Assembly (NCBI GenBank): GCA_028282685.1
Contig: JANQHK010000127.1
Location: forward strand, 1 to 64,000
Direction: 5' to 3'
DNA length: 64,000 nucleotides
From: Phycisphaeraceae bacterium
GTDB taxonomy: Bacteria; Planctomycetota; Phycisphaerae; Phycisphaerales; Zrk34
Both the position numbers and the translations under genes were made by a program. The notes beneath the pieces were generated by a model, which was given only the letters and a program-made list of their open reading frames with translations, ran no database searches and had not been told where the DNA came from. Below are positions 23,313 through 24,224 of this stretch, in pieces (the stretch's first letter is position 1; every line of letters begins with the position of its first letter).

Positions 23313-23341
23313 TTGATAAGAGTAATACACTAGTGTATTAC
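23313..23341 (+). promoter_or_regulatory. Promoter of the MerR-HicB/HicA operon overlapped by a 20-bp palindrome
   Basis: TTGATA (23313-23318) and TATTAC (23336-23341) are 17 bases apart. A perfect palindrome, GTAATACAC-TA-GTGTATTAC, occupies 23322-23341, covering the spacer and the -10. MerR-family regulators bind palindromes in this position, so autoregulation by the fused antitoxin is likely. The antitoxin starts 25 bases downstream. Confidence 0.7.
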
Positions 23342-23365: not shown

Positions 23366-24019
23366 ATGGAAATCCTGCTTTCGACCAAACAGGTGGCTGC
23401 GTTAGCCGGGGCCAGCGTTCGGCAGGTTGGCTATTGGGCGGATACGGGATTGGTCCGTCCAAGCGGCAAATCCGCTTCGGGCAAGGGCACCCGGCGACTT
23501 TTTACTTTTATCGACCTCGTAGCGATAAAAACCATTGCAGGTTTGCGCGAGCGACGATGTCCACTCCAGAAAGTGCGCAAGGCGATTCGATACTTGAAGG
23601 CCCACTATTCCGATGTGCAGGATCAACGATGGCTGTCCCGTCTGACGCTATTGACCGATGGGCAGCAGGTTTACATGCTTACCGATGCCAAGCAGGTTAT
23701 GGAGGTACTTTCACGACAAACGGTCTGGTCGGTTCCATTGGGGATGTTCATCCGACAATCGCAAGAGCAGGTTGAAAAACTGCCCTTGGAGTGGACTAAA
23801 AGCGTTCGGGTGACTGGCCGTACATTTAGTCTGAGGATTACGCGCGATATTGAGAATGGAGGTTACGTCGTACAGTGCCGGCAGTTGCCGGGGGCACTGG
23901 AACAAGGCGATACCATTGAGGAGGCGGTCAACAACGGCAAACAGGCCATTCGGTCGGTTTTGTCATTCCGCAACAAGCAGCGACTCGGGGGGGCGACTGG
24001 GCATGTCAGGACTGGCTAA
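23366..24019 (+). CDS. Fused MerR-type HTH / HicB-like antitoxin
   Basis: A 217-residue two-part protein. Residues 4-78 are a MerR-type winged helix (STKQVAALAGASVRQVGYWADTGLV...GKGTRRLFTFIDLVAIKTI). Residues 150-200 are a HicB fold (FSLRITRDIENGGYVVQCRQ, LPGALEQGDTIEEAVNNGKQAI). A linker of about 70 residues joins them. Classical HicB antitoxins carry their DNA-binding region at the C-terminus as ribbon-helix-helix or HTH, so an N-terminal MerR domain is unusual. The toxin gene overlaps its 3' end by 17 bases. GTG/ATG alternatives upstream add residues without similarity; the ATG at 23366 follows GGAGG. Confidence 0.85.
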   Translation: MEILLSTKQVAALAGASVRQVGYWADTGLVRPSGKSASGKGTRRLFTFIDLVAIKTIAGLRERRCPLQKVRKAIRYLKAHYSDVQDQRWLSRLTLLTDGQQVYMLTDAKQVMEVLSRQTVWSVPLGMFIRQSQEQVEKLPLEWTKSVRVTGRTFSLRITRDIENGGYVVQCRQLPGALEQGDTIEEAVNNGKQAIRSVLSFRNKQRLGGATGHVRTG

Positions 24020-24224
24020 CGCCAATGTTCGCACCAAGGTTGTCCGAGCGCTGCGACGGGCGGGCTTTGAAGACCATGAAGGCGCCCATCACACAATCAT
24101 GGCGCATCCCGACGGTCGTTATACGACTCTTCCCCGTCATCGACGTATCAAGCCATTGTTGCTGAGAAAAATTATCAAGCAATGCGAATTGCGCGAAGAA
24201 GAATTCTTGAAGCTTGACAAGTAG
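24003..24224 (+). CDS. hicA: HicA-type mRNA interferase toxin
   Basis: The 73-residue product has the HicA double-stranded-RNA-binding-like fold: VRALRRAGFEDHEGAHHTIMAHPDGRYTTLPRH then LLLRKIIKQCELREEEFLKL. H29/H30 in GAHH hold the catalytic histidine position of this family. Expected to cleave mRNA when freed from the antitoxin. Overlap with the antitoxin gene (17 bases) and toxin-second order imply translational coupling. The length is that of typical HicA proteins. Confidence 0.88.
   Translation: MSGLANANVRTKVVRALRRAGFEDHEGAHHTIMAHPDGRYTTLPRHRRIKPLLLRKIIKQCELREEEFLKLDK

Follow-up and report, generated by a model that had tools for sequence, protein, structure and literature searches.

Two overlapping genes on the forward strand of the window (the whole 64,000-nucleotide stretch analyzed here, from a Phycisphaeraceae bacterium) most probably constitute a chromosomal type II hicBA toxin-antitoxin operon with a dimeric antitoxin-repressor. 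The antitoxin carries a MerR-type head, a middle domain resembling the dimerization domain of the repressor CvkR and a C-terminal HicB domain, and its gene is followed by hicA.

Gene pair and domain architecture

The genes and the domains of the antitoxin are located as follows:

23366..24019, + strand: hicB-type antitoxin gene, 217 aa (MerR head, CvkR-like dimerization domain and HicB domain)
23381..23593, + strand: MerR winged helix-turn-helix, residues 6-76 (Pfam MerR_1, structure matches)
23612..23779, + strand: middle domain, predicted CvkR-type dimerization domain plus helix, residues about 83-138 (AlphaFold model on 7xn2)
23789..23989, + strand: predicted HicB domain, residues about 142-208 (family profile on solved HicBs, model on 6u0i/6hpb/6g1c)
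24003..24224, + strand: hicA toxin gene, 73 aa, with conserved His30 (Pfam HicA_toxin E 2.4e-11, fold match to solved HicAs)

The preliminary description had reported two open reading frames with a 17-base overlap and had read them as a MerR-HicB antitoxin with a HicA partner. Both frames were found, sharing 17 bp (23366-24019 and 24003-24224), and Pfam, profile and fold matches agree with that reading. The pair is flanked by phoU on one side and an M90 peptidase gene on the other. In the phoU loci of relatives examined, neither the pair nor the M90 peptidase gene was found beside phoU; the absence of the pair fits a gain of the module in the lineage of the window. The same genome encodes one further hicA, which belongs to a classical hicA-hicB pair with a HicB of 70 aa.

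The HicA assignment exceeded the Pfam cut-off (44 bits versus 27). The predicted structure of the toxin (pLDDT 88) has the dsRBD-like fold of solved HicAs, with matches to 1whz (Z 11.5), 6g26 (8.7), 5yrz (8.4) and 6hpb (8.2). Comparisons with the HicAs of B. pseudomallei, S. pneumoniae, E. coli and Y. pestis gave Z values of 7.0-8.7, versus 4 or less for unrelated chains. His30 is invariant in the alignment of the window HicA with L076, L077 and L079 and lines up with the histidine of other members. Immediately before this conserved histidine, the window HicA reads GAHH, whereas its nearest relatives read GGKH.

At the N terminus of the antitoxin, Pfam MerR_1 matched residues 6-76 (E 4.5e-10, 39.9 bits versus a cut-off of 21.6). 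In the AlphaFold model of the 217-aa protein (six sequences, mean pLDDT 84, pTM 0.73), residues 2-141 superposed on CvkR (Alr3614; 7xn2) with a Z of 14.0 and an rmsd of 2.8 over 134 residues. Runner-up structure matches to the head and middle reached Z 8.5 and lower, mainly via the winged helix. CvkR, which represses type V-K CRISPR-associated transposons, belongs to the MerR type but dimerizes through a distinct beta-sheet domain where MerR proteins usually have a coiled coil (PMC9938897). The long antiparallel coiled-coil dimerization helix of classical MerR proteins does not occur in our model either, and strands and short helices follow residue 82, as in CvkR. Because of this match, head and middle presumably form a dimeric CvkR-type unit. 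Residues about 83-138, previously taken for a linker, are instead predicted by the model and the CvkR match to be a folded dimerization domain. A PADLOC match to mad1 covered the helix-turn-helix alone and is not regarded as a link to MADS.

The C-terminal part of the window protein matched Pfam HicB_lk_antitox weakly (residues 163-198, E 0.0031, under the cut-off) and the HicB-like PHROG 497 with an E value of 1.1e-8. Homologues of the same architecture were over the Pfam HicB cut-off (L017, 8.1e-10; L018, 8.2e-7; L047, 7e-7). Positions 151-206 of the family profile matched the solved HicBs 6u0i (E 5.1e-6), 6hpb (3.6e-5) and 6g1c (6.6e-4). The model has a four-stranded sheet and a long helix at residues 142-208, and its residues 151-208 superposed on the same three structures with an rmsd of 1.7-2.2 over 56 residues and Z values of 6.5-7.0, which are middling by themselves. 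Joined to the sequence evidence, they make a convincing case that the predicted HicB part, with its partial RNase H fold, is real, as had been proposed at the outset. The cognate hicA directly adjoins this HicB-type gene.

Homologues and their neighbor genes

A search with the window protein in 397 genomes of the class recovered ten other full-length homologues, and a search of the phylum Planctomycetota with the homologue profile added five further copies, in family f97. Within these searches, full-length MerR-HicB homologues were present in six families of Planctomycetota. Their occurrence in many independent genomes rules out a sequencing or assembly artefact, which the preliminary description had named as a possible source of the fusion.

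It had also been asked whether MerR-HicB genes always neighbor hicA. They do not: type IIG restriction genes or no partner were also seen. hicA is located directly downstream at ten loci (window, L012 [= L076], L015 [= L079], L016-L021 and L077), with the exact 17-bp overlap in three of them (window, L012 and L077). L013 and L014 have no hicA, and a type IIG restriction-methyltransferase gene starts 15 and 42 bp, respectively, after the MerR-HicB gene (PADLOC REase_MTase_IIG, E 1.4e-47 and 8.8e-15; N6_Mtase in L040, E 3e-17). The arrangement below is the same in L014/L041:

L013/L040, 6713-7372, minus strand: MerR-HicB gene
L013/L040, 3542-6697, minus strand: type IIG gene, following the MerR-HicB gene

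A PDC-M01AB-like candidate defense pair (ATPase plus HNH) was additionally observed near the MerR-HicB and restriction genes of L040.

In a tree of head and middle, the window clustered with L012, L077, L015, L013 and L014 (support 99/97), and the restriction-linked pair was nested in that clade (window, L013 and L014; 89/88). As the pair nests inside the hicA clade, the tree suggests that hicA was replaced by a restriction gene in L013 and L014. A single clade of all HicB fusions was not rejected (AU p 0.14), and one origin is neither shown nor rejected.

At the four f97 loci examined (L047-L050), there was no hicA within about 1.5 kb of the MerR-HicB gene; the HicB part is eroded in L048-L050. 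In genus g102 (L027-L031, L105, L106 and L108), a MerR protein with a much decayed HicB-like tail occurs without hicA, with a LOG/SLOG gene (lysine-decarboxylase-like) on one side and a citrate synthase gene on the other, and may be a domesticated antitoxin. An AIR-synthase-related gene (ThiL-like) directly follows hicA in L016, L018, L020 and L021, in a chromosomal neighborhood common to family f15; Pfam confirms the AIRS domain for L016, L018 and L021.

Related heads without a HicB domain were found in planctomycetes (L022, L024 and L025) and on actinobacterial plasmids (L008-L011), the latter with 31-40% identity to the window protein across head and middle. Rv1830 (ResR/McdR) may be a relative of these HicB-less actinobacterial proteins. 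In the actinobacterial L081 and L082, the MerR head is fused to DUF433, and a PIN_10 gene comes next in L082; thus, MerR heads occur on more than one antitoxin type. Matches of L082 to repeat proteins in the PDB were repeat-driven and were dropped. No relative was detected in protein-pattern scans of viral contigs or in a first genome scan, and a wide alignment contained no stretch conserved enough for use as a scan pattern. A phage collection gave one match, L139 (MT835496.1), an unverified fecal contig on which a ParA-like gene comes after two MerR genes; filed as phage, it looks like a piece of actinobacterial chromosome.

Control region and possible modes of action

The 146-bp gap after phoU holds the following elements:

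23313..23341, + strand: predicted promoter TTGATA-17 bp-TATTAC (second-best score, tentative)
23322..23341, no strand: candidate operator, perfect 20-bp palindrome GTAATACACTAGTGTATTAC (shuffle test; core common to related promoters)

When the intergenic sequence was shuffled 20,000 times with dinucleotides preserved, 2 shuffles produced an ungapped arm of at least 10. The core ACAYNNRTGT was exact in 8 of 12 promoters of hicA- or restriction-linked loci (the window and seven others); its chance frequency of 0.0078 per 120 bp overstates the significance, as the core was derived from the same related sequences that were counted. Four loci (L015, L016, L017 and L020) have no exact core; in two of these, L016 and L020, different strong palindromes occupy the corresponding position. 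The palindrome upstream of L016 is unusually long, running roughly 60 bp (CTACAGGTAAGAGTGTCTTTATAATAACCTATAGG...).

The top-scoring promoter pair in the window has the same -35 element with a 15-bp spacer, and the 17-bp pair TTGATA/TATTAC ranked second. A stricter dedicated scan returned no promoter at 23313-23341, and the promoter elements are weak matches. Among hicA-linked members, the best predicted -35/-10 pairs have spacers of 15-20 bp, mostly 17, and the palindrome lies across the spacer and -10 element or across the -10/+1 region, a placement suited to steric repression.

From the observed gene order, domains, predicted folds, conservation and palindrome, we infer an operon that represses itself and encodes a toxin neutralized by its partner. 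The product of the upstream gene would act as an antitoxin-repressor, dimerizing through its CvkR-like head and middle domain, and the dimer would bind the palindrome over the promoter and keep the operon off. Its C-terminal HicB domain would cover the active site of HicA, a putative mRNA-cutting RNase, so that the toxin encoded by the second, overlapping gene stays inactive. With an excess of HicA or a loss of HicB, repression and neutralization would drop together. As HicB follows directly on the helix that bears the putative effector site of CvkR, HicA itself could be the signal that alters DNA binding; this last step is a guess.

The preliminary description had proposed a different logic, in which a MerR-type activator twists an over-long promoter spacer and, upon effector binding, switches the operon on. 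We consider this improbable for the window. The head is indeed of MerR type, and the cas12k promoter controlled by CvkR has been given a 21-bp spacer. Furthermore, in HicB-less L022, L024 and L025 a TTGAC[A/G] box immediately precedes an AACAAC..GGTTGT-like palindrome, and spacers of 19-20 bp are a possible reading (17 bp scores higher in two of the three); these may be true MerR-type promoters. As their start codons are very close to these elements, their transcripts are perhaps leaderless, as reported for cvkR. However, the mostly 17-bp spacers of the fused, hicA-linked members and the position of their palindrome, on the -10 element or downstream of it, lend no support to promoter twisting. 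In addition, the middle domain matches that of CvkR, a repressor reported without a recognizable effector site, and the window antitoxin has only two, scattered cysteines. Because of the canonical spacing and the palindrome on the -10 region, simple autorepression appears to fit better than MerR-type twisting. A dead or decaying module, with an inactive hicA and an operon kept by chance, is very unlikely: the GAHH of the window HicA would be in line with decay, but the reading frames are intact, His30 and the overlap are conserved, and the predicted fold is good.

A broader reading, compatible with that of an autorepressed hicBA operon in the window, is that MerR-HicB is mainly a regulator of defense or self-harming genes, with hicA as one of several cargos. 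Two close relatives, L013 and L014, fall inside the hicA clade and encode the same protein behind an operator-like core, with type IIG genes downstream; orphan copies occur in f97, and the decayed g102 copy beside citrate synthase and the MerR head-DUF433 fusion before a PIN_10 gene in an actinobacterium point the same way. On the other hand, ten of the sampled intact fusions have kept hicA, the orphans may be merely decayed toxin-antitoxin modules, and only two restriction-linked cases were found. On balance, we regard this reading as possible but tentative. More speculatively still, the union of a CvkR-type MerR head with HicB could serve Planctomycetota as an interchangeable cassette for sensing and repression, coupled with hicA, with type IIG restriction genes or with no cargo at all. 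Its HicB part would signal to the promoter what state the cargo (or an invader) is in, and an antitoxin would have turned into a restriction controller.

Comparison with known systems

The window pair shares with classical hicAB systems (E. coli, B. pseudomallei and Y. pestis HicAB3) the HicA fold, the conserved histidine and the partial RNase H fold of HicB. It differs in its reversed gene order and in having an N-terminal MerR head instead of a C-terminal HTH or RHH domain. A 2024 review of HicAB names only HTH and RHH as DNA-binding heads, both C-terminal. Gerdes 2024 (PMC10865869) distinguished 14 classes of HicA contexts, and the word MerR is absent from its main text. Classes 5 and 6 are nearest to the window; however, their N-terminal head is Phd/YefM, which the window protein does not have, whereas the latter carries a MerR_1 head of MerR/CvkR type and an extra dimerization domain. 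The class 7 HicB (216-233 aa) is like that of the window in length and gene order, but contains two DUF1902 domains and no recognizable DNA-binding domain. As none of the 14 classes was described with a MerR head, the MerR-headed hicBA appears to be novel, and a non-exhaustive literature search found no description of such a head on a HicA-family antitoxin.

CvkR resembles the window antitoxin in its winged helix and dimerization domain and in the half-site ACAT of its published operator, AnnACATnATGTnnT (PMC9938897), which played no part in deriving the core ACAYNNRTGT. The half-sites are separated by 1 bp in the CvkR operator and by 2 bp in the window palindrome. CvkR differs in lacking a HicB domain, in controlling cas12k and tnsB and in its low identity (16%) to the window protein. 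No type V-K CRISPR-associated transposon is adjacent to the pair, the neighboring genes being phoU, hicA and the M90 peptidase gene. Makarova 2009 (PMC2701414) predicted antitoxins of MerR type for PIN toxins. These share the MerR-type head on an antitoxin with the window (compare L082), but the toxin they act on is a PIN nuclease, bound through DUF433 or another small domain.

Overall, the window adds to the HicA systems a DNA-binding head outside the 14 classes, whose best structural match is a repressor of CRISPR-associated transposons. Judging from its restriction-linked relatives, an antitoxin domain may outlast its toxin as the controller of another defense gene, and the fused MerR-HicB resembles an interchangeable regulatory unit for self-harming or defense genes.
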